Source: Bradyrhizobium sp. 186 (GTDB lineage Bacteria > Pseudomonadota > Alphaproteobacteria > Rhizobiales > Xanthobacteraceae). From it: DNA of 64,000 nucleotides. The notes under the pieces are model-generated. The model worked only from the letters and a program-made list of their open reading frames with translations, was not told where the DNA came from and ran no database searches. Location: contig NZ_CP082164.1 in assembly GCF_023101685.1 (NCBI RefSeq), positions 1,178,001 through 1,242,000 of the forward strand, written 5' to 3'. Both the position numbers and the translations under genes were made by a program. Numbering within the stretch: the first letter of the stretch is position 1; each line of letters opens with the position of its first letter. Shown here in pieces: positions 1 through 10,732 of this stretch.

Positions 1-15
1 GCATTAGGTGCGATC

Positions 16-453
16 ATGCGTGCTGTAGTGAAAGCCGTTGATCGCCCGGCGAGTGATGCTGCGATCGTCCGCGATGCCCCGATGCTGGCCTATGACCGTG
101 GCCGCCGCGAACTGATGCAGGCGGTTGCGGTCGATGAAGTCAAGACGATCCGCGATCAGGCCGAAGCGTTGCGCCGTTATTGGGCGCAGCGTCACGACAA
201 AGAGATGGAAGCCGCCTGCTCGGCGATCCGGCTGCGCGCCGATTATGAAATCGGCGTGCGCAGCAAGGCGCTGGAAGGTACATCAGGGCAATATCAGAGC
301 AAATCGCCACCTAGCGGCGATTTGGGCAAGGAATCCGTTCTCCGGGAAGCCGGGATCGCGCCGCAGCGGGCGCGCGAATTCGAGAAACTGACCGAGATCA
401 TCACCGAGAAGGATGTTGACCGGCTGTGCCGCGAAGCTCATCAACGCTTTTGA
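16..453 (+). CDS. phage/ICE-type small conserved protein
   Basis: A 145-residue soluble protein of unknown function. The middle part (VDEVKTIRDQAEALRRYW, then a run of charged helix) resembles small proteins often found in prophages and integrative elements of Rhizobiales, which start with a VDEVK-IRDKA-type helix and end in a helical segment like the one here (AGIAPQRAREFEKL). The ATG at 16 is preceded by AGGTG at a suitable distance. The frame is open back to base 1, so a longer N-terminus cannot be excluded. No membrane segment or catalytic motif is visible. Its position beside an integrase-bearing region supports a mobile-element origin. The family resemblance is from memory of the pattern, so confidence in function is low, but the reading frame is solid. 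Confidence 0.6.
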   Translation: MRAVVKAVDRPASDAAIVRDAPMLAYDRGRRELMQAVAVDEVKTIRDQAEALRRYWAQRHDKEMEAACSAIRLRADYEIGVRSKALEGTSGQYQSKSPPSGDLGKESVLREAGIAPQRAREFEKLTEIITEKDVDRLCREAHQRF

Positions 454-525
454 GACTTTGCAGCAAGCTGGCTGTATTCGTTGCAAACGCGACGAGTTCT
501 GATCTCTGCGATCAGGAGGTCCGTC

Positions 526-1662
526 ATGACGACACACGATCGATATCAGCATTACGGCTTTGGCGGCGACCGGCCGCCGATCAGGAACGAAGCGGCGAGC
601 TTTCCGGCAGGCGACGCCAGCAACAGCATTGTTTCCGGCCCGCTGCCCGGCATGATGGTGATCAATGCAGGCGACCCGCTCGACGTGCTGCCCCTGCCAG
701 CCCGCGAAAAGGTTGCGGTCCTGCAACGCCGCCGCGCAGAACTCGTCACGTTGTACCGCTCTCATTTCGAGGAAGAGCAGGCGCTGCGCATCGAAATCTT
801 CAAGCATGAAGCTCGCATCAAGGAATTGCAAAAGCCGCGCGGCGAAGGCGGCTACAATCTCGATAGTGACGCGCCACAAGTTGTTGCCGAGCAAAAGAAG
901 CTCGACCACAAACGGGCCGATCTTGACCGCGTGCTTGCCGTGAAGGAGGCGCGGTCCCTAGAAGGCAAGCGCGTCGGCGATCTGCTTCGCAACATCGAGG
1001 TGGCAATTGCCGCGCGTCCTGCCGGGACCGTCGGCAAGATGGTCGAGATCGAACCACCACCGTTCAAAGGAAACATCGTTGATACGATTGCAGGCAAACA
1101 GCGCCGTGGTCGCGAATTGCTTGCCGATCTCGATCGCTGCCGCCACGCGCCCCGTCCCGCCGCCGTTCGCAAGGCGGCCATGATCGCTCAAGTCGAAGCA
1201 TTGGCCGAGCAAGGCCGACCGGACGCGGCCAGTAGCATCGAGCATGGCGAGCCGATCGCTTGGCCGCTCGAACGCTTCCAGTGCGATATCTTCAATGGCG
1301 CGGCGCCTGGCGCTATCGCCTTCGGGCAACTCACCGATGTCGTCGCCTTCATTGCGTGGCTGTTCAAGGATCAACTGATCGAGCGGCTGCGCGCCGAACT
1401 TGACGCGGTCGCCGACGACGATGCGGCGCTCAGCGATCAGGAGCGGCGGGAGCGAGAGGCACAAATCTTGGCCGACTTGCTGGCCCTCGAACGTGAGGAG
1501 GTTCTGCTGATCGAAAGAGCGAGATCGCAAGGCCTTCCCGCTGACTTCCGGCCAGATTGCAGCGTGCTCGCCTTGCTGTCGATCACATGGGTGGCCGCGC
1601 CGCCGCCGGAGCCGCGCGAGGGCGCGGGCGAGGCTGGCATCGTTCGTCATGTTGGTTCGTGA
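526..1662 (+). CDS. hypothetical protein, charged and helical
   Basis: A 378-residue protein that I do not recognise. The ATG at 526 is chosen because AGGAGGT lies just upstream (514-520); a longer TTG form from 481 has no such signal. The sequence is rich in Glu, Arg and Ala, with probable coiled-coil stretches near residues 60-135 (PAREKVAVLQRRRAELV onward) and again near residues 285-335 (LRAELDAVADDDAALSDQER onward). There is no signal peptide or membrane helix. It lies 72 bases after the preceding gene in the same direction, so the two may be co-transcribed as part of the same mobile region. Confidence 0.6.
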   Translation: MTTHDRYQHYGFGGDRPPIRNEAASFPAGDASNSIVSGPLPGMMVINAGDPLDVLPLPAREKVAVLQRRRAELVTLYRSHFEEEQALRIEIFKHEARIKELQKPRGEGGYNLDSDAPQVVAEQKKLDHKRADLDRVLAVKEARSLEGKRVGDLLRNIEVAIAARPAGTVGKMVEIEPPPFKGNIVDTIAGKQRRGRELLADLDRCRHAPRPAAVRKAAMIAQVEALAEQGRPDAASSIEHGEPIAWPLERFQCDIFNGAAPGAIAFGQLTDVVAFIAWLFKDQLIERLRAELDAVADDDAALSDQERREREAQILADLLALEREEVLLIERARSQGLPADFRPDCSVLALLSITWVAAPPPEPREGAGEAGIVRHVGS

Positions 1663-2053
1663 GGGTCGCGAGATGCGTCGCCGGTTTCGGTCGAGCAGGC
1701 CAAGGCGGCGCAGCAGCGGCGGGTGGGTATATGCTGCACCATCCGCCGCTGTGCGGCTTATGGCCCCGGTAAATGGGTTGCGAGCTCTTTACCGCCGTTT
1801 ACGCAAGCCTGCGCGGTCCTCCATAGGCCCCGCCGACCGCGCACAGGCGGCCATCCTAGCGAACCAAAGCCGAGAAATGGAACCGCCAGATATTCTCAAG
1901 GCGGGCGGTCGCGCGTCCCTGCGGTCGATTTTTTTGCTCAGAAGGACCCAAGCAACATCGATGGGTCCTCGCGGCTTTCCCCTTTTGAGTAGAAGCCCGT
2001 TTAGGACCGATCCGTGATAGGCTTCTGACCGAAGACCATGCCGGAGAGCGGCC
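1663..2053. other. intergenic stretch without a supported gene
   Basis: About 390 bases with overlapping open frames on both strands, none with a convincing ribosome binding site, family resemblance or coding pattern. The frame of the upstream gene stays open after its stop codon up to about 1990. This could be the degraded 3' part of a longer ancestral gene, but nothing in the translated residues supports that. No clear terminator or repeat is seen. Confidence 0.4.
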
Positions 2054-2353
2054 ATGCCGAAGGCTTACTTGATCGCTGAGCACGTCATCACCGAGCCCGC
2101 CGTATTTGAGGAGTACCGGGTCAAGGTTGGGCCGATGATCGAAAAATACGGCGGGCGGTATCTGACCAAGGGCAGCGCGCATCAATTTCCCGAAGGGGGC
2201 CACTGGGAGCCGGAGCGCGTTGTCATCATCGAATTCCCCGATAAGCAATCGCTCGACGCGTGGTACAACTCGCCAGAGTATCAGCCGCTCATAAAATTAC
2301 GCAAAGAGAGCACGAGTGATCTCGATATGCTGATCACGCTTGAGGGCGTGTAG
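2054..2353 (+). CDS. DUF1330 domain protein
   Basis: A 99-residue protein covering one DUF1330 domain, a small ferredoxin-like dimeric alpha/beta barrel of unknown activity. The order fits the family: AYLIAEHVIT beta strand, helix with FEEYRVKVGPMIEKYGG, GHWEPERVVIIEFPDKQSLDAWYNSPEYQPL, then a final strand. GGAGAG lies five bases before the ATG. It is complete and of normal length. It faces the next gene tail to tail, one base away. The domain assignment is firm; substrate and role are unknown. Confidence 0.85.
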   Translation: MPKAYLIAEHVITEPAVFEEYRVKVGPMIEKYGGRYLTKGSAHQFPEGGHWEPERVVIIEFPDKQSLDAWYNSPEYQPLIKLRKESTSDLDMLITLEGV

Positions 2354-2354
2354 C

Positions 2355-2819
2355 CTACGAGGCTGCGGCAGTTCTTTTCGGCACCCGAAGATCGCTCGGG
2401 ACATCTACCGAGAGCTTCTTGAGCACCGTGTTGGGAAAACGAAGCAGCTTCTCACCGATGCCGACACGGCCAGCATAACGATCGAAGATGATTTGTCCCG
2501 GCCCGTTGAATATGACCTCGTGGGTGCCGTCCCGAAACAGCTTGAAGCCGAGATACAGGTCGGGCGTCGTCTTAAACGTTAGATGATCCTGAAATGTTGC
2601 TTTGATCTGCACCCCACGGCCACCACGCGTTTTGCCATCGTGAACCGCTCGGCTTACGTCATCCAACTCGATGTCGAACTCCGCCGCCGCAATGATCTCG
2701 CCTATGTCGCCGATCAATCGGCCATCGATCGTGAAGCGCCTGTGCGAGAATTCGGCTTGGAGCATTCCGATGCCCTGAAAGATGAGGCCAAGGGCCTCCT
2801 TGATCTGTTTCTGTGACAC
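2355..2819 (-). CDS. DUF6998-like protein, possible PD-(D/E)XK nuclease
   Basis: A 154-residue protein if read from the GTG at 2819; a longer form from 2912 would overlap the preceding gene by 77 bases. The core shows RRFTIDGRLIGDIGEIIAAA, then a stretch with HDGKTRGGRGVQIKATF, then FNGPGQII. This layout (Glu in a first helix, Asp/Gly turn, QxK strand) is like DUF6998-type proteins and resembles the Mrr-like variant of the PD-(D/E)XK nuclease fold, so a DNA-cutting role is possible but inferred. The gene starts 17 bases after the stop of its upstream neighbour, which suggests one operon and perhaps a working pair. Family match is moderate; nuclease activity is unproven. Confidence 0.65.
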   Translation of the reverse strand: MSQKQIKEALGLIFQGIGMLQAEFSHRRFTIDGRLIGDIGEIIAAAEFDIELDDVSRAVHDGKTRGGRGVQIKATFQDHLTFKTTPDLYLGFKLFRDGTHEVIFNGPGQIIFDRYAGRVGIGEKLLRFPNTVLKKLSVDVPSDLRVPKRTAAAS

Positions 2820-2835
2820 AGGCGCGACGCTCGCA

Positions 2836-3534
2836 TTAAGGCACTGACTTCGTTTCCGGGTCGCTGACAAACGCCAAAAACGATCGTCCCAAGTCGGTGG
2901 AGCGACGCTCAAGCAGACCGCTGCCCGTCATCATGACTTGTATGCCGCTCGACGTGGTAAGTCCCATCGCGTTCAGGTCGGCGACGACCCGGTTTAAAAG
3001 CTCGCCATTGCTTTGAATTTCCGGAAACGCTGCATCTATTAGATGCACTAACGCACCACCCAACGAGATGCTCTCAGCCTTCCGTATCGCGGCAGGATTA
3101 CCGCGCGGGTTATCCAGAAATGCCAGCAACACCGCGTGCATCGGCGTGATCCCGTCTAGCATTTGGATGAACAACATCCGGACAGTCTCATCAACGTGCC
3201 CGATAGCCGAATTGATGATCGCGTTTTGCAGCAGCTTCTTCTTCTCTGCGGACGCCGTTGTCGTTGCCAAACGCACAGCTTGAATGAACGTAGCCTGAAA
3301 TTGCTCGTTGTCTCGCAGGTTCTCGGGACGAAGTCGTTCGCTGGATGCCTCCAGTGCAATCAATCGCTCCAATGTCGCCTTCATGAAGTCATCTCGCCGT
3401 TCCTGCGCTGGATCACCTATTACGAAGGCCAGGAATTCATTCAGTGGGCCGCCGACCACCGGCAGGGTGCCGACGGCCGCCTTGAGACCGCGATTGAGGA
3501 AATCCTCCGGTCGGTTGCCGAAAACGTCGCTCAT
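2836..3534 (-). CDS. unknown protein with hydrophobic N-terminal segment
   Basis: A 232-residue protein that I cannot assign to a family. AGGA precedes the ATG at a good distance. Residues 18-40 (AAVGTLPVVGGPLNEFLAFV) form a Gly/Pro-containing hydrophobic or amphipathic helix that could associate with membranes; the rest is helical and soluble, with a C-terminal winged-helix-like region (LLNRVVADLNAMGLTTSSG, then ERRSTDLGRSFLAFV). It is followed closely by the DUF6998-like gene on the same strand. A hydrophobic-segment effector plus nuclease-like partner would fit a defence pair, but that is inference from position only. Confidence 0.55.
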   Translation of the reverse strand: MSDVFGNRPEDFLNRGLKAAVGTLPVVGGPLNEFLAFVIGDPAQERRDDFMKATLERLIALEASSERLRPENLRDNEQFQATFIQAVRLATTTASAEKKKLLQNAIINSAIGHVDETVRMLFIQMLDGITPMHAVLLAFLDNPRGNPAAIRKAESISLGGALVHLIDAAFPEIQSNGELLNRVVADLNAMGLTTSSGIQVMMTGSGLLERRSTDLGRSFLAFVSDPETKSVP

Positions 3535-3713
3535 GCCGATCCTCGTTTACGACAGCAGAGGTCACTCTGCATCGCGCAACTGTCATTGCTCGCCACGGTT
3601 TCTGTCCATCTCTACTGTGCATAAACCTACCACAAGTTGCCACAAGGGTGACAGCCCCGCGCGCCGCGCGTAACATCAACAGGAGCGATCTCGATGATCG
3701 GTGTGGGGGAGCA

Positions 3714-4682
3714 ATGGACGACGATGCGATAGTCCGGATTTTTCAGCCGCTGTGGGCTGATCTTCGGCCAGAGGACACGTTCGTGGCCAAAAAACCACTG
3801 CTGGCGCATTACACGACTGTCCAGACTTTGGAAAAGATACTCGCCAACAATGAGATTTGGCTGTCGAACCCGTTGTTTATGAACGACATCGAAGAAGTCC
3901 GCTTTGGCGTGATCCAAGGCAACGAAATGGTTCTCGCCAGGCAGGAACTGGTCGATGCGTGCAAGACCCCCGAGCGCGCCCAGCAATTTAAGAACGCGTA
4001 TGCCCACTTCTTCAACCAATTTGCCAACGAGCACATCTTCGATACCTACGTTTTCTGCCTTTCCGATCACCGGAGAGATGATGACGATGGGCGGTTGTCC
4101 ATGTGGCGAGGCTACGGTGCAAACGGCAACGGAGTGGCAATCGTTTTCGATACGGCTCAGCTAACGTCGCTTGGAAGTTCGCCACTGATCATCGCTAAGG
4201 TTTCATACGAAACGAATGATGCCCGGCTGGGATGGCTCCAAAACACCATGGCATCGTTTGAGGCCTTGCTTGCAAGCGCGAACATCCCGGATGAAAAGCT
4301 TTATTTGGCCGCTCACGCGCTATTTGAACGGATTAAAATATTCGCCCTCTTCTCCAAACACAGGGGATTTGTTGAGGAGCAAGAATGGCGGGTCGTTTAC
4401 TTGCCAGATCGCGACAAGGAGCAAAAGCTCCATTCAATGTTTCATTACTGGATTGGTCCTCGCGGCGTTGAACCAAAATTGAGGTTCAAGGTCCAACCCA
4501 TCCCGGGGTTCACGGCTGACGACTTATCGCTGGACAAGATCACTGATAGGATCATTCTTGGACCGAGCATCTCGTCACCGCTGGCCCGTGCGTCGATGGA
4601 CAGGATGCTAAATATCCTCAATCAACCCGAGCTGAAGTCGAAGCTGCGCATATCGACAATTCCATTTCGCGCAATTGGCTAG
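3714..4682 (+). CDS. DUF2971 domain protein
   Basis: A 322-residue protein with the DUF2971 pattern: LLAHYTTVQTLEKILANNEIWL, then NPLFMNDIEEVRFG, a central FCLSDHRRDDDDGRLSMWRG segment and a late FVEEQEWRVVYLPD motif. Members are of uncertain biochemistry and often occur in accessory or defence-associated loci. The ATG at 3714 is chosen for the GGGGGAG just upstream; the longer frame from 3648 lacks a signal. Base composition is lower in GC than the right part of the window (25 of 60 G/C at 4321-4380). It is flanked by oppositely oriented genes, so it is probably its own transcription unit. Confidence 0.8.
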   Translation: MDDDAIVRIFQPLWADLRPEDTFVAKKPLLAHYTTVQTLEKILANNEIWLSNPLFMNDIEEVRFGVIQGNEMVLARQELVDACKTPERAQQFKNAYAHFFNQFANEHIFDTYVFCLSDHRRDDDDGRLSMWRGYGANGNGVAIVFDTAQLTSLGSSPLIIAKVSYETNDARLGWLQNTMASFEALLASANIPDEKLYLAAHALFERIKIFALFSKHRGFVEEQEWRVVYLPDRDKEQKLHSMFHYWIGPRGVEPKLRFKVQPIPGFTADDLSLDKITDRIILGPSISSPLARASMDRMLNILNQPELKSKLRISTIPFRAIG

Positions 4683-4749
4683 ATCGCCGCACTTTGCTTA
4701 ATGCAGCGCAAGACGTAGTTAGCGACGCACCCAGCTCGACCGGGGTCCT

Positions 4750-5889
4750 CTACGCATAGAGGTCCCGAGAATTTGCCCAATCAATAGATTTTTCGGCTAG
4801 CTTCGGAAAGTCGCTGAGCACCTTGCCTGAAAATGCCTCAATGAGTGAAAGTGCGCGGTCATCTGCAGTTCGTCGCTCTAACGTCGAATGCGAAAGCGAG
4901 TGCTGCCAAACGTGTGGTCGGTACCGCACCAAAGAACTTAAAAGGAATGCTCCGCAAAACTGTAGTGCAAACTCCGACAATTGAACCCCGTTTAGGGGCT
5001 TGATCGCCGTTGGATGATCATTGGTGATGCCCCCGGCCAAAGGAGGCAATATCGACGAAAAAGGGATGCGCGCCCGGCTTCGATCTCGCGCAACGAAACC
5101 ATTTTCGTTTCTAACGAGGAACTGATCGGAAAATTCACCTTCGACGGGCTTATCAATGTTGTAGAAAAGCAGGACGGTGTTGTTCCACGCGTGACCAGCT
5201 TCGCAAAGGCACCACTGTCGAAGAAACGGAAATTTTTCACGCCATTTTTCTACGATCGAGCGCAGGTCATCCCTGTCGGCTATCAGATGAGGATCGTCGA
5301 TCCGCAACTCAACTTCATCATCCCGATGATAGAAGCTAACCGACAGGCAGGCAGCATCTTCGCGGAACGTTCTTTGATAGAGCCTTTGCAGGCTCGGAAT
5401 TCTAGCTAGAATTTCCTTCAAGGAACAGTTCGTGCCGCTCAGTGCAGCGGCGGGATCGAATGGCTTTGGCTCCGAACGGGGCATGGAATTCTGAAAATAA
5501 TTCAGCCGTCCCAAAGATGCCACAACGTCGTTGAACTGAGCAAACAGCCCCTTTCGGTGGAACTGCAGCGTTAGGTCCTCTATGTTGGCAGCCTGTTGCG
5601 ATACATCCGACACGCCATGAGATTGTGCGATGGTTGAAATTGATTGGACGTTGCGCGCGATAATGATCGCTTTGGCAAATCCAACGACGCCGTAATAGAT
5701 CTGCAATGGCTGCACTTGGAGTGGAGCAGAAGCGGCTATCTCAAAAAACAGTCTGCCTTGTTGCAAACAAGCAGCGATATCGTGGGCTATTTCCGTCGAT
5801 GGGGTTCTTCCCGTCGAGTGCTTGATTATTGCTTTGAGATTTGTTGTGCTTTCGAGAAATCTAATCTTGTTCCAATCTTGGGCTTGCAT
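4750..5889 (-). CDS. YaaC-like protein
   Basis: A 379-residue soluble protein resembling the YaaC-like family of unknown function. Supporting segments are GRLFFEIAASAPLQVQPLQI followed by YYGVVGFAKAIII near residues 45-76, and the C-terminal FLLSSLVRYRPHVWQHSLSH region, which matches the conserved Arg-Tyr-Arg-Pro..Trp block of that family. Its ATG directly abuts the stop codon of the SRAP gene upstream (TAA then ATG with no gap), so the two are almost certainly translated from one mRNA. The tight operon with an SRAP protein and a GIY-YIG protein is unusual. The family call rests on motif memory, moderately sure. Confidence 0.65.
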   Translation of the reverse strand: MQAQDWNKIRFLESTTNLKAIIKHSTGRTPSTEIAHDIAACLQQGRLFFEIAASAPLQVQPLQIYYGVVGFAKAIIIARNVQSISTIAQSHGVSDVSQQAANIEDLTLQFHRKGLFAQFNDVVASLGRLNYFQNSMPRSEPKPFDPAAALSGTNCSLKEILARIPSLQRLYQRTFREDAACLSVSFYHRDDEVELRIDDPHLIADRDDLRSIVEKWREKFPFLRQWCLCEAGHAWNNTVLLFYNIDKPVEGEFSDQFLVRNENGFVARDRSRARIPFSSILPPLAGGITNDHPTAIKPLNGVQLSEFALQFCGAFLLSSLVRYRPHVWQHSLSHSTLERRTADDRALSLIEAFSGKVLSDFPKLAEKSIDWANSRDLYA

Positions 5890-6549
5890 TTAGGTTGCCT
5901 TATCTTCCTTATCCGACCCTCGCGCAACGATCTGGAGCGCATCGTTGGGCAGCGGTCGCTGCAAAGCTTTAGCCTCATCCCAGGAAGCCCGCATCCAAAC
6001 ATCGCGCTCCTCGTCGGTGGTCAAGATCACCGGCATTGCCTTAGGGTGGATGGGCGCGACGACCCCGTTGGGAGCAGTTGTCAGAAATCCATAGATGAGA
6101 TGCGGCCCCGGTACCGGCTTCGACTTGGTGCCTCGATCCCCCTTGAACTCGGTCCAAATGCCCGCGAAGGCGAACAGCGGTCGGTCCTCATTGATCGCGA
6201 ACCATACGACGTCTTTCTTCTTGGTCTCGGGGTTCGGCTCGGGCGCATACTCAGCAAAGCTGTTCGCCGGGACCAAGCAGCGGTTCTCCGGCTTGAGCCA
6301 GCCGCGCCAATGGGGCGATGACGTGTTGCGGATATTGGTGACCGGCGGTCCCCCCGTGCGCGGTGGTGGGGGCATGCCCCACCGCATCAAGACCATCTCG
6401 CGCCCTGCGTCGTTGTTGCGGATCACCGGAGCCGGATAGTCCGGAAACACGCCGGGCATCGGGGCGAGATTGCCGACGTAGCGATTGACCACGCGAAACA
6501 GAGCGCGGATCGCCTCTTGGTTCGTGGTCACACTGTAGAGATTGCACAT
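5890..6549 (-). CDS. SRAP (YedK/HMCES-type) abasic-site protein
   Basis: A 219-residue SRAP-domain protein. In this family the N-terminal Cys, exposed after Met removal, forms a thiazolidine crosslink with abasic sites in single-stranded DNA and shields them. All key residues can be placed here: Cys2, Asn72 in the TNIRN segment, Glu100 in [11 protein letters not shown] and His168 in [12 protein letters not shown]. Length is normal. The gene lies six bases after a GIY-YIG gene and abuts a YaaC-like gene, so it belongs to a three-gene operon rather than standing alone as most chromosomal yedK genes do. Family assignment is secure; a role in this operon beyond DNA repair is open. Confidence 0.93.
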
Positions 6550-6555
6550 GCCGGT

Positions 6556-7428
6556 CTAGTTATCATTGAGGCCATAGGGCTGGCGAGTGTGCAGGCGCTC
6601 CTTCCAATTACTTTCGAGCCATTGAACTTCTTCGGGGGGCATAGTGGGAGAAACCAGTTCGAGGATGGTGAAACGAAAAGTTGTTGGGTCACGCTGCCGC
6701 AGCAATCTGTTCCCGCCGTGCCCCGATGCCCCGTAGTGTCGCCACCTACCCAAAAGATTTTCCGACCCATAAGCGGAGCCGATGTAGCCCTTCGCATCCG
6801 AGCTATCGAAAATGTAGTAGATGCCCCGCCACTCGGCGAGCTTCGCCTGCCAACGCTTTGGCAAAATACTGAGTTGGCCCCAAGTAAGGTCTAGCTCGTT
6901 CCATTTCTGCATCGCTGTATCAAGCGCGCTGTCTTCGAGAACAGCGTGAATGGACATCCTATTGCGGTGGGCGCGCCGCCACCAAGATCGCTCAGGCGGC
7001 GGCCAATCCACTACTAATTTGCCCCTCCATTCGGAATAGAAGTCCAACGGTTTCAGGTCGAACCACAGGCAACTGGATCGACGGCCCGTCACGAACGCGC
7101 GCATTCCTAGCTTCTTCAATTCGGTATTGGCCGGGATACGCCAAAATTTGGGCTGCGTAAGAGGTCTTGATTTCCCGATAGCATATGCGCCGATGAACAA
7201 TGCTCTGCCGGAGCCGTGTCGGATGAAGGAGGCCACATGGCTCGCGGACAGCAAAACCTTCTCGACTTTCTCACTGTGCGCTTGTTGGTAGGCGTTGAAT
7301 AGATCAGGCCGGTCAGCTGCTAACAGCGGAAGGATTTTATTGAGTTCTGGCTCCGTGGGACGGTGCCGAAACACGATAACGCCACGCGGATCGATACCTT
7401 TGCCCATCAAAAGCTCGTTCAATTCCAT
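6556..7428 (-). CDS. GIY-YIG nuclease family protein
   Basis: A 290-residue protein whose C-terminal third is a GIY-YIG domain: WRGIYYIFDSS, AKGYIGSAYGSENLLGRWRHY, then the late LVSPTMPPEEVQWLESNWKE segment that supplies the metal-binding Glu. The Tyr, Gly-Tyr-Ile-Gly, Arg and Glu positions of an active nuclease appear present. The first about 200 residues form a separate region that I do not recognise, likely for target recognition. It is the first gene of the operon leading into the SRAP and YaaC-like genes (six bases between its stop and the SRAP ATG). No strong ribosome binding site is visible. Confidence 0.85.
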   Translation of the reverse strand: MELNELLMGKGIDPRGVIVFRHRPTEPELNKILPLLAADRPDLFNAYQQAHSEKVEKVLLSASHVASFIRHGSGRALFIGAYAIGKSRPLTQPKFWRIPANTELKKLGMRAFVTGRRSSCLWFDLKPLDFYSEWRGKLVVDWPPPERSWWRRAHRNRMSIHAVLEDSALDTAMQKWNELDLTWGQLSILPKRWQAKLAEWRGIYYIFDSSDAKGYIGSAYGSENLLGRWRHYGASGHGGNRLLRQRDPTTFRFTILELVSPTMPPEEVQWLESNWKERLHTRQPYGLNDN

Positions 7429-7554
7429 GTGCCCGATCCGTGTCAGTCCGGTGCGAGTGCAGCTTCTGGCAATACGATAAAAGACGCACGACGCGATGTC
7501 GCGCCTGCACGAGTGAAGATGGCGCGGCCTCCATTTCGGCGACGAAATGGGCGG

Positions 7555-8514
7555 CTAGAAGCGTCCAGTGCGAGAAATAATATCATCCAGCAAAGCAAAA
7601 AGTGGAGCAGGCCATATGACACCCTGTTTAGCCGCTTCGCTTGCTCGATCCCGAACATATTGGGCGCTAATTGGTCCGTCGGATCTTTGTTCATTGTAGA
7701 GTGTCGACATTGCCGCAAGCAATTTCCGTACACGCCGCCGCGCCATGGCTTGGGCGTACCACCAGAATGGCAGCGCGAATGTGCTCATTGAAGCAAACGC
7801 CAAGAACAAGAACCCGCATACCCCCATGATCCATTCTGCGGCATTCACTCCGATCCATCCGCTGGAACTTGCCCAGAGTGCAAGCCCAGCAATTCCGCCG
7901 AAGAAGACGCTGTTGATGAATTGACCCTTCAAATATCGGAGCAACGGATGGCGTTGTTTCAATGGAGATCTCGCCGGAAATAGTCCGAACGTCTCTTCGT
8001 TGAGCATCTCATCGCCAAAGGCGTAAAGCTCCATTGCAATCAGAGCGCGGACGAGAAAACGTTCTAAAGCCTGACACCGATATGGGAGTGCCAAGTAGTT
8101 ACCGACTACGCCTTCAAGCTGTGAGCGATCGATATAAGGGACCTGCTTTGCTCTTATTTTGTCCAGCGGATTTGCATTGCTGTCCCAGAAATTTGGCGAC
8201 GGGCTGTCCGAGCCATAGCGGACGAAAGCAAACCGCAACGATCTGACGATCTCTAAAGCAGCATTCAAAACACTCTCTTCAAAATCACGCGGATCAGCCT
8301 TGTTCGGCAGTGCGTAATCTGACGCGGCTTTAGCCATCCTCTTCAGGAGAAAGCCATAAAGACCCGGTTTCTCCGCGCAATCGTCACCGAATTGTGCGCT
8401 CAGCTCGTAGTTTACGGCCTCGCCGCAAATGTTCTCGAAATGCCATCTTCGAGTTGCGTCGTCCAATATGCCGCCGAGCGCATCGGCGCTTTTCCTGTAA
8501 TCACCTGCTTCCAT
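7555..8514 (-). CDS. unknown protein with two membrane helices
   Basis: A 319-residue protein of unknown family. It has a soluble N-terminal region of about 200 residues, then two close transmembrane helices near residues 205-225 (SVFFGGIAGLALWA) and 230-255 (WIMGVCGFLFLAFASMSTF), and a short cytoplasmic tail. It sits between the integrase and the GIY-YIG operon on the same strand, 126 bases upstream of the latter. Soluble domain plus twin helices is a layout seen in membrane-acting defence effectors, but no diagnostic motif supports that here. Confidence 0.55.
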   Translation of the reverse strand: MEAGDYRKSADALGGILDDATRRWHFENICGEAVNYELSAQFGDDCAEKPGLYGFLLKRMAKAASDYALPNKADPRDFEESVLNAALEIVRSLRFAFVRYGSDSPSPNFWDSNANPLDKIRAKQVPYIDRSQLEGVVGNYLALPYRCQALERFLVRALIAMELYAFGDEMLNEETFGLFPARSPLKQRHPLLRYLKGQFINSVFFGGIAGLALWASSSGWIGVNAAEWIMGVCGFLFLAFASMSTFALPFWWYAQAMARRRVRKLLAAMSTLYNEQRSDGPISAQYVRDRASEAAKQGVIWPAPLFALLDDIISRTGRF

Positions 8515-8677
8515 CGAAATACGAGCCCCCCAGCGGGCACTCTACTTACAATTGGCCACCGCTACAACCAAGCCGTGCGCCGCTGCGCCGCTCTCGCAGG
8601 CCCCTATGTTCGAAGCCTCGGCCAGCTTCGCGCTGACCGGGCTACTCATATCGTGCAAATTGCGCGATCTGGGTTGA

Positions 8678-10081
8678 TCAGGCCGCGACTAGCCGCAGCT
8701 TCGGGTCTACGGGCTTCACAGGAAGCTCCCCGATGATCCGCCGCAGTTCCGCTGCGATGCCGTCGAGCACGGCGCGCTTCTCCTTCATCCTTTTGCTGTG
8801 ATTGTAGACCTTGCCGGTGACGGTCGGCACGATCTGCTCGGCTTTCTTGCTGGCGGCATGGTCGAGACACTTCGCGATCCACGCGTCGTCAAAGCCGAGA
8901 TCACCCGCCAAGGTAGCCGCCGTCCGGCGCAGGTCGTGCGGCGTGAAAGGCCGCAGGCCGAGTAGCTGGCAGATGCCGGGGATGGTCACCTTGCCCTTGC
9001 GCTTGATGCCGCGCAGCGCGTCGGCCATCGCCTTGCGGTACATCGGCTTGTTGTCGAGCAGGCTGGCGAATACGAAATCCTTGTTGTTGCCCTTCAAGGC
9101 GTCCCTGATGATCTCCACCGCGAGGCTCGACAGCGGCTGTTGGATCATTCGCCGCTTCTTGACCCGCTTCAATGGCACGTCGAGGCGCGGCTGCTCGCCG
9201 TCGAGGTCGATCAGTTCGTTGCGGTGCGCGCCGAGCAGTTCGGCCGAGCGCAGCATGGTGACCAACTCGAACTTGAGCGCGAGCCGGGTCCTCCGGTCCC
9301 ATGACGCCAGCAGTTCGTCATCAGCGAGGCCGTGCCAGAAAATCCTGATCTCGTCCTCGGTCAGGACGCGGGTGCGCGGATGCTCCGGGTCGAGCGGCTC
9401 CAGATCACTGCAAGGGTTGGCGGTGATGTACTCGCGCCGCAACGCCCACCGGAACATGCCCGACGCCGCCTTGCGCATGTGACGTGCATTGCTGACCGAC
9501 GGCTTGCCGCCGTGCCGACCCGCTACGATGTCGTCCGACAACGCCTGTATGTCGCCTCGGGTGACGTCGACCGCGATCTTCCTGCCCAGCTTCGGGCCGA
9601 TGAAGCGGCGCAGATGGCTCGCGGTGTTCTCCCAGCTTTCCAGCCGGGGCCGCATCTCGCCGTCCGCCTTGCGAACCGGCGTCTGCATCCACTCGATCCG
9701 CTCCTCGATGATCTCGTCAACGGTTTTGCCTCGCCGGGCCTTGAGCGTCTTCTGCTGTCGCAGGCTCTCGGCGATGTTCTCGCCGTTGCCGATCCGCATT
9801 CTCAGGGCATAGACCTCGGTGCGGGCATGCTCGACCGTGAAGGTTTCGCGATTGTAGATGCCGAGCCATTTGGACCGTTGCTTACCGGTGGCAGGGTCGG
9901 TGAACTTGAAATTGAAGGTGGCGACGCCTGTCGGGATGATGCTGACATACAGGCCGGGACATTTGCGGTCGTAGATTTTGACCCGCTCGGCGACCCGCTT
10001 CTCGCAGAGGCGGTCGGTCAGGTTGACGCTGCCCTGGCGGGCGCGCTTGCCAGCGGGGGTGGCGATAATGGTAGTGTCCAT
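8678..10081 (-). CDS. tyrosine-type integrase of the island
   Basis: A 467-residue site-specific recombinase of the tyrosine family with an N-terminal DUF4102-like arm-binding region (DRLCEKRVAERVKIYDRKCP), a central SAM-like domain and a C-terminal catalytic domain. Catalytic residues are visible: Arg in TMLRSAELLG, His-x-x-Arg in FTPHDLRRTAATLAG, His in KCLDHAA and Tyr in GKVYNHS. Start at ATG 10081, internal to a slightly longer frame. It is complete. It marks the right edge of the left-hand accessory region and reads into it. No tRNA is seen next to it, so the attachment site remains unidentified; nearby dyads upstream of the gene are listed separately. Confidence 0.93.
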   Translation of the reverse strand: MDTTIIATPAGKRARQGSVNLTDRLCEKRVAERVKIYDRKCPGLYVSIIPTGVATFNFKFTDPATGKQRSKWLGIYNRETFTVEHARTEVYALRMRIGNGENIAESLRQQKTLKARRGKTVDEIIEERIEWMQTPVRKADGEMRPRLESWENTASHLRRFIGPKLGRKIAVDVTRGDIQALSDDIVAGRHGGKPSVSNARHMRKAASGMFRWALRREYITANPCSDLEPLDPEHPRTRVLTEDEIRIFWHGLADDELLASWDRRTRLALKFELVTMLRSAELLGAHRNELIDLDGEQPRLDVPLKRVKKRRMIQQPLSSLAVEIIRDALKGNNKDFVFASLLDNKPMYRKAMADALRGIKRKGKVTIPGICQLLGLRPFTPHDLRRTAATLAGDLGFDDAWIAKCLDHAASKKAEQIVPTVTGKVYNHSKRMKEKRAVLDGIAAELRRIIGELPVKPVDPKLRLVAA

Positions 10082-10129
10082 GTGGTTTCGGCTCCTCAAG
10101 GCTTGGGACCAAAGGGCTCGGCTTTGGGG

Positions 10130-10176
10130 CTTTCAGTTTGTCGTGCGGACGCTGAAAGACTTAGGGCCGGGCCCTA
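10130..10176. promoter_or_regulatory. dyad cluster upstream of the integrase
   Basis: Two inverted repeats lie within 100 bases of the integrase start: CTTTCAG (10130-10136) with CTGAAAG (10152-10158), and a perfect 15-base palindrome TAGGGCCGGGCCCTA (10162-10176). They could be integrase arm or excisionase sites, an operator, or part of the attachment region. The bases are clear; the role is a guess. Confidence 0.4.
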
Positions 10177-10732
10177 GATTTGACGAAACCCGCCGAAGCG
10201 CCCCGCAACAGGCTAGACGAAAAGTGCTTGTTTCAAAGGGTTTTTGTAGTCTTAGCGGGTCTCACCGAATGCCAAAATATAGACGTGTGGTCCTGGCCGT
10301 CGTTGCTACGGTCAAGCCTTTGCGAAGGCGTCATCGCGTCAACCGGTGCGATGGTCGTGAATTTCGCGAAGGCGACGGAGGCAAGAAGGAATTCGTCTCC
10401 GGGGAGAGCGCGGCATAGGCCGTCAAACCACTGCGCAGGGAAGGCCTGGTCTCGGCTGCCCTGTGTCTCCCCTGTGCATTGCGTGCGCAATAGTTTCGCA
10501 TAGGGGCTTTATGGGTGCCAGCCGGCGCCCGGTCTTCCCTGCGCCCTTTCCTCGGAGAGGGGTGACGAGAGAAACATAGCTCGGGCAAAGCATGCCGCGA
10601 GAACGCCAGCGCGTATCCGTAATTTGCCTGCGAATTGACCTCCCGTGCGAGCATGATGCGTCGGCTTCAGTGGAGGTGGTCGTTGCTCCCAGAATCTGCC
10701 TCTATGCGAATTCAGCTTTCGGGAGTGACGAT
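10177..10732. other. intergenic junction between island and core genes
   Basis: About 550 bases without a supported gene. The part from about 10500 to 10620 contains a near-palindrome (GGGTGCC..GGCGCCC) followed by a segment that resembles remnants of intergenic repeats seen in Bradyrhizobium-type genomes. Open frames here are short, overlap each other and lack signals. No tRNA gene could be folded by eye. Confidence 0.4.

Follow-up and report, generated by a model that had tools for sequence, protein, structure and literature searches.

We analysed a 64,000-nt stretch of the Bradyrhizobium sp. 186 chromosome (contig NZ_CP082164.1, positions 1,178,001 to 1,242,000; hereafter the window, part of chromosome G000:C1), in which three packed genes encode a nuclease of the anti-phage family UzuA, a SRAP-domain protein and a YaaC-like protein:

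6556-7428, minus strand: UzuA / GIY-YIG nuclease, 290 amino acids (aa) (PADLOC PDLC03973, GIY-YIG residues)
5890-6549, minus strand: SRAP-domain protein, 219 aa (Pfam PF02586, E 6e-25)
4750-5889, minus strand: YaaC-like protein, 379 aa (Pfam PF14175, E 1.1e-29)

The original prediction had taken these genes for a dedicated three-gene system that makes or recognises abasic or modified DNA, perhaps to resist phage. Its description of the architecture holds at these coordinates: all three genes lie on one strand, with 6 bp between uzuA and SRAP (6550-6555) and 0 bp from the SRAP stop to the yaaC start in the list of open reading frames (ORFs). Based on gene content and distribution, we read the trio with moderate confidence as composite mobile cargo, uzuA and yaaC flanking a SRAP anchor, and not as a dedicated three-gene machine.

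The SRAP protein matches its Pfam model above the cut-off and carries all four of the residues predicted to be key, Cys2, Asn72, Glu100 and His168. The E. coli counterpart YedK has an active-site set of Cys2, residue 75, Glu105 and His160 in the available text of PMC9436759, so that the window protein shares both the family and the active-site residues of YedK and HMCES. Its closest solved sequence is 2aeg_A (E 5.2e-43), and its family and residues suggest that, like YedK, it probably caps single-stranded DNA at abasic sites. The ratio of nonsynonymous to synonymous substitution (dN/dS) of SRAP is ∼0.07 between the window and genome G329 and ∼0.06 between the window and G167; synonymous changes in UzuA and YaaC are saturated and yield no ratio.

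The nuclease aligns over residues 1-290 with positions 3-278 of the 278-position PADLOC UzuA profile (E 8.2e-73), and its Pfam GIY-YIG match (E 0.0038) lies below the Pfam cut-off. The GIY-YIG residues, which had been predicted to be intact, are invariant in all seven aligned relatives (G202, Y204, Y215, G217, R228, E272 and N288). The profile match together with these motif residues identifies UzuA as a nuclease, and family and motif suggest that it probably cleaves invading DNA. The YaaC-like protein scores 104.3 bits against PF14175 (cut-off 27) over residues 4-365; to our knowledge, no function has been assigned to this family. A HEPN nuclease reading of YaaC, raised by a C-terminal R-x5-H (the HEPN motif), was dropped, as the His is missing in two of five full-length relatives. 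Searches of the PDB gave no convincing relative of either UzuA or YaaC. The comparison with defence catalogues called for in the original prediction thus recovered UzuA, while SRAP and YaaC of the window matched no PADLOC family at E 0.1.

The trio sits in a 13,560-bp integrase island delimited by 11-bp direct repeats and present twice in the same chromosome of the 10.77-Mb genome:

G000:C1 position 1174735, ∼3.27 kb before the window start: left 11-bp direct repeat, CGTGTGGTCCT
1-10294, no strand: part of the island inside the window (duplicated-segment comparison)
8678-10099, minus strand: tyrosine integrase (Pfam PF00589, E 2.3e-16, and PF13356)
10284-10294, no strand: right 11-bp direct repeat, core CGTGTGGTCCT (repeat comparison of both copies)
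G000:C1 ∼5.570-5.584 Mb, minus strand: second island copy, also bounded by CGTGTGGTCCT

From repeat to repeat, the two copies show 0 differences over 13,560 bases, which points to very recent movement or duplication. The integrase and accessory genes noticed in the original prediction are therefore those of a mobile island. The listed integrase ORF contains an in-frame ATG 18 bases inside, and relatives of the integrase (76% identity) are found in two other genomes: in G371 one lies upstream of uzuA, and in G501 one adjoins a uzuA remnant. A tRNA attachment site was considered and rejected: no tRNA was found near either island copy in the window and the fetched flanks, the nearest lying ∼12 kb outside the left repeat. 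Past the right repeat (window positions 10295-10600), both sites run into similar, non-identical sequence, which suggests a dispersed repeat, in place of a tRNA, as a possible target of the integrase.

Conservation analysis in 265 Bradyrhizobium genomes found UzuA and YaaC together solely in the window's genome, and among 296 genomes sampled from the family the two again overlapped solely there. The intact trio accordingly occurs in one of 265 congeneric genomes, as the two identical copies. In each genome, these searches scored the 5-11 best candidates, and occurrences of the trio or of single genes may therefore have been missed. The original prediction had regarded an operon unique to this genome as speaking against it, and this is the distribution we observe. 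The trio as a conserved system was therefore rejected, as neither the genus nor the family search showed it recurring at diverged loci.

In contrast to the full set, both of its halves recur as pairs. UzuA was detected in 10 of the 265 Bradyrhizobium genomes and in 8 of the 296 family genomes, and SRAP follows uzuA in three of the ten: in the window, in G329 (29-bp gap, UzuA 80% and SRAP 86% identical, SRAP intact) and in G371, where UzuA (89%) has a frameshifted 3′ end and precedes a 38-residue SRAP remnant (97%). The other uzuA genes of the genus have no adjoining SRAP: G493 carries its copy (70% identity) on a plasmid of strain CB82 with SRAP pieces ∼4 kb upstream, G265, G437, G412 and G446 carry distant copies with no SRAP beside them, and G501 and G478 retain fragments. 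UzuA also matches 377 plasmid records; in the five that we inspected, tblastn found no adjoining SRAP, and the four annotated ones show other neighbours. In G145 and the viral contig L228, uzuA adjoins phage portal, protease and capsid-like genes as judged by eye, and a phage collection gave weak partial UzuA matches in three records.

YaaC was likewise found in 10 of the 265 genomes, in 4 of the 296 family genomes and in 2 of a 337-genome class sample. SRAP and yaaC adjoin in four of the ten. Besides the window, these are G167 (SRAP 83% and YaaC 53% identity, genes overlapping), G330, where the order is reversed and a YaaC with an open frame (59%) is followed 44 bp on by a frameshifted SRAP, and G533, with remnants of both genes (YaaC 83%). 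The other six show no SRAP match in the fetched stretches; they comprise longer divergent genes (G299, G512), a 3′ half at a contig end (G382), 3′ fragments (G509, G306) and a short 5′ fragment (G454). In the Tardiphaga genome G237, the N-terminal part of YaaC is fused to an Mrr_cat restriction-nuclease domain (E 3.5e-5; L034:8817-10055, equal to L046), and a SRAP gene lies ∼6 kb from yaaC on the opposite strand. Of two viral-contig relatives, viewed by eye, one (L230) adjoins an integrase-like gene, and the other (L231) has a repressor-like gene on one side and a P2-type tail gene on the other. These prophage settings and the Mrr fusion hint at a defence role of YaaC. As side observations, an ATP-dependent ligase gene follows yaaC in G167, and in Bradyrhizobium sp. 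199 a gene ∼1.9 kb upstream of the SRAP-yaaC pair (L033:3651-6107) encodes a protein of defence-type architecture, SIR2-like plus STAND NTPase.

These data bear on a three-gene defence system close to the original prediction, in which UzuA would cut the invader, SRAP would recognise or shield abasic or single-stranded DNA, and YaaC would sense infection or gate the nuclease. The 6- and 0-bp spacing on a single strand, the island setting, the retained key residues, the recurrence of both halves and the two identical island copies are what such a system would lead one to expect. Nevertheless, we consider it quite improbable: beyond the restriction of the trio to one of 265 congeners and the lack of any other genome with both uzuA and yaaC, distant UzuA relatives (22-38% identity) on the plasmids and viral contigs and in the other genera inspected have no SRAP in the fetched stretch, the fetched flanks of YaaC relatives from an acidobacterium, a deltaproteobacterium and Gilvimarinus are likewise free of SRAP, and in G330 the YaaC frame is open beside a broken SRAP. 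Overall, among the UzuA and YaaC relatives inspected outside the genus, none was found with SRAP next to it. Together with the many other genes that SRAP pairs with (see below), this speaks against a dedicated system. The suggested anti-phage role survives in part, in that the nuclease belongs to an anti-phage family and has recurring neighbours; its extension to one system built from all three genes does not.

SRAP itself is widespread, with matches in 262 of the 265 Bradyrhizobium genomes. From the matches listed for these 262 genomes, we sampled 60 SRAP loci, each a full-length, high-scoring copy from a different genome; fragments and weaker copies lie outside this sample, and 20 regions from 20 of the 60 genomes served as controls. 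Genes were called with a home-made ORF caller without start-site modelling, two stricter callers having missed low-GC accessory genes. A same-strand gene lies within 150 bp of SRAP upstream in 36 and downstream in 30 of the 60 loci, and 64 of these 66 tight neighbours (two short ones were dropped) were scanned for families. Among the families listed (the first 25), UvrD helicase (5/64) and MmeI-type restriction enzyme (2/64) recur, and the rest are very mixed. The five UvrD-family helicases, located within 150 bp after SRAP in L155, L179, L181, L184 and L200, match the GajB and RTasHel profiles, matches which are possibly generic for such helicases. Neighbours picked by eye include ASCH (L174), AbiJ_NTD4 (L113, outside the 60), PDC-S67 (L159) and PDC-S47 (L192); of ten eye-picked proteins compared with Pfam, ASCH and AbiJ_NTD4 score above the cut-off and the others are weak or without family, and three of ten compared with PADLOC match a family at E 0.01. 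A porin-like protein, a glycosyltransferase and secreted proteins were also seen near SRAP by eye.

The surroundings of SRAP have a lower G/C content than the control regions (0.587 vs 0.624, 58 vs 20 loci, p 3e-6) and atypical codons; the low G/C content fits islands, which are usually lower in GC. In the window's genome there are 38 SRAP matches, most of them gene fragments. Besides the two operon copies, near-complete stop-free SRAP sequences occur there only at 7714962 (28% identity) and at 9107832-9108533, the latter as two pieces in a 246-aa frame. Such abundance would suit plain accessory-gene traffic, in which each recurrent pair would go back to a single insertion in an ancestor and would have no functional meaning: few accessory genes of Bradyrhizobium are as common as SRAP, so that any island gene could come to lie beside it. 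The near-universal SRAP matches and the atypical composition around them agree with this explanation, which we nonetheless find somewhat doubtful, as the pairs persist at YaaC identities of 53-59% and UzuA identities of 80-89% while their outer neighbours differ, and as they show gaps of 0-50 bp, co-orientation and, in G330, a reversed order.

A SRAP tree, built without the broken copies of G330, G371 and G533 and poorly resolved, groups neither the uzuA-linked copies (window, G329) nor the yaaC-linked copies (window, G167) nor the two MmeI-linked copies. Five of the six uvrD-labelled copies fall into one clade with L189 and L193; at L197 one gene separates the helicase from SRAP. Ungrouped copies are expected if partners have been exchanged or if conversion has occurred between SRAP copies. 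Vertical co-inheritance of SRAP with a partner was set aside, as no grouping appeared in this tree of low resolution with two copies per kind. Recombination within SRAP that joined a uzuA-SRAP to a SRAP-yaaC locus was also rejected, because stretches of the window SRAP are no closer to uzuA- or yaaC-linked SRAPs than to others.

Many of the Bradyrhizobium SRAP loci in our sample share a further arrangement, in which a gene for a 138-residue zinc-ribbon-like protein with two CxxC motifs and no Pfam family above cut-off (ZnR) precedes SRAP, and the slot between them contains either nothing or up to two same-strand genes, whose family varies. ZnR is present in 32 of the 60 SRAP loci and in none of the 20 control regions. 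With the addition of three loci picked for carrying uzuA or yaaC (L113, L033, L093), the number rises to 35, and ZnR lies upstream of SRAP in 35/35, on the same strand in 27 and on the opposite strand in 8. Among the 27 co-oriented loci (L147-L206 plus the three picked ones), the slot measures 2-5 bp in four and is filled in 23, with UzuA as occupant in G329 and YaaC in G330. When each of the 23 filled slots is represented by its longest co-oriented ORF (minimum 55 aa), the occupants fall into 20 families. Five of these ORFs are shorter than 100 codons and may be spurious (L153, L156, L164, L187, L201), and without them 18 ORFs of 16 families remain; three of the five gaps are below the 250-base limit of a strand-blind caller, which called nothing in the other two. 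This caller placed genes between ZnR and SRAP in 18 of the 27 co-oriented loci, all on the strand of the bracket.

Across the wider family, 70 of 266 genomes and 15 of 47 genera have a ZnR match. The co-oriented ZnR-SRAP pair is seen in several genera (e.g., L238, L239, L241, L245) and is therefore probably old. A Ku-like protein was noticed by eye near ZnR in L232 and L239. We regard the ZnR-SRAP slot as a possible gene-capture slot in Bradyrhizobium, and it is this ZnR-[slot]-SRAP locus that is the newer finding; the trio alone is of modest interest.

One explanation for the slot is that ZnR-SRAP acts as a repair or sensing platform for interchangeable defence effectors, with UzuA and YaaC as two of its clients. 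The 20 occupant families, the consistent strand of the called slot genes in 18/18 loci and the membership of some occupants or neighbours in known or candidate defence families would agree with a shared partner. Occupants that do not look defence-related are also present, though, some of the defence-like ones had been selected by eye without a control scan, ZnR is on the opposite strand in 8 of 35 loci, and elsewhere it often occurs without SRAP, so that we hold this explanation to be rather doubtful. A bolder version appears unlikely to us: a mobile ZnR+SRAP plug-in bracket would capture genes between or behind its two members, many of them anti-phage (UzuA, YaaC, HEPN/Abi-like, restriction), SRAP/ZnR would sense or cap abasic single-stranded DNA and thereby make damaging effectors safe, and the trio would be a doubly loaded version. 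If the bracket holds beyond our sample, it would offer a handle for finding defence and accessory genes, between two recognisable genes, in a major plant-symbiont genus; for the poorly understood bacterial SRAP proteins it would suggest a second role open to testing, that of a safety or sensing partner shared by damaging enzymes; and Uzume would gain a natural partner candidate in SRAP.

Returning to composite mobile cargo, the reading that we prefer, UzuA would be the effector nuclease against incoming phage or plasmid DNA. SRAP, probably expressed through coupling to the preceding gene, would act in the manner of YedK and covalently cap the abasic sites of single-stranded DNA; by capping, it might keep damage to the host low when replication is under stress or a nuclease is active, and so serve whichever cargo adjoins. 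YaaC may conceivably be a second, independent defence-like cargo gene.

Several observations weigh against this interpretation. The close packing (0-6 bp) and the recurrence of both pairs could mean a functional partnership, and the resolution of the SRAP tree is low. No ZnR was found at the window's own locus. ZnR also exists without SRAP: a co-oriented SRAP lies just downstream in only 8 of the 30 ZnR loci returned (tblastn), a ninth, L232, has a SRAP recognised by eye, and the rest have no SRAP there, a fragment or a divergent SRAP. Several slot occupants resemble secreted proteins, an acyltransferase or a recombinase and not defence proteins, and the family scan had no control set against which a surplus of defence genes around SRAP could be established. 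The Alphaproteobacterial SOS box has the consensus GTTC-N7-GTTC, which is not enriched in the window: there are 50 one-mismatch matches against 45.6 expected, and no perfect match.

Compared with known systems, the window nuclease resembles Uzume, a single-gene system, in fitting the UzuA model end to end with its GIY-YIG residues kept. It differs in that uzuA is closely trailed by SRAP in the window and two congeners, whereas neither SRAP nor YaaC adjoins the relatives that we inspected from plasmids, viral contigs and other genera. Uzume is listed among defence systems of unexplained mechanism in the available text of PMC10482375 and PMC12926258. Likewise, the window YaaC resembles its Pfam family in its above-cut-off match, from which the Mrr_cat fusion of the Tardiphaga relative departs.

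SRAP has been reported near Ku, ATP-dependent ligase, SF1 helicase and Zn-ribbon genes (Aravind et al. 2013, PMC3765255), and our loci resemble the operons in the available text of that paper in having ZnR, UvrD helicases, an ATP-dependent ligase and, by eye, a Ku-like protein. In its accessible main text, the paper describes repair partners and prophage SRAP, not a ZnR-SRAP slot with changing genes; its Zn-ribbon may not be ZnR, and GIY-YIG and YaaC are each mentioned 0 times there. The Brig1 DNA glycosylase ties abasic sites to phage defence in the available text of PMC11078745. In contrast, no glycosylase or base-modifying gene was recognised among the ten ORFs near the trio (Pfam scan; three of the ten without a family), and the window SRAP would bind, not make, abasic sites. 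The proposed making or recognition of abasic or modified DNA thus found nothing specific in its favour.

With respect to layout, our loci can be set against defence hot spots. The core hot spots of Pseudomonas reportedly have fixed flanking genes and changing content. In our loci, the flanking unit consists of two repair-type genes that recur together at many places, and most slots contain a single gene. In the open-licence literature, we found no published description of the UzuA-SRAP-YaaC set or the ZnR-SRAP slot, and among titles and abstract starts no publication on the gene context of SRAP in Bradyrhizobium. The assertion that no system with this set is described was not contradicted for the set by these searches, while the nuclease is a member of the catalogued family UzuA.

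The trio is surrounded by further island genes:

7555-8514, minus strand, 126 bp upstream of uzuA: protein of 319 aa without family, hydrophobic stretches seen by eye
3648-4682, plus strand, convergent with yaaC: DUF2971 protein (Pfam E 2.4e-10; PADLOC PDC-S31, E 2.6e-8)
2836-3534, minus strand: 232-aa island gene, no family assigned (ORF list, Pfam, PADLOC)
2355-2912, minus strand: DUF6998 protein with weak nuclease-like hints (Tox-REase-2, E 0.1; mREase_II, E 0.009)

Promoter and terminator scans gave signals at or below shuffle level. Among the loci compared, the 319-aa gene has a tblastn match solely in the second island copy. The match of the DUF2971 protein to PDC-S31, a phage-defence candidate, is weak. 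Taken together, the genes at 2355-4682 (DUF6998, 232-aa and DUF2971/PDC-S31-like proteins) resemble additional accessory or defence cargo of the island.

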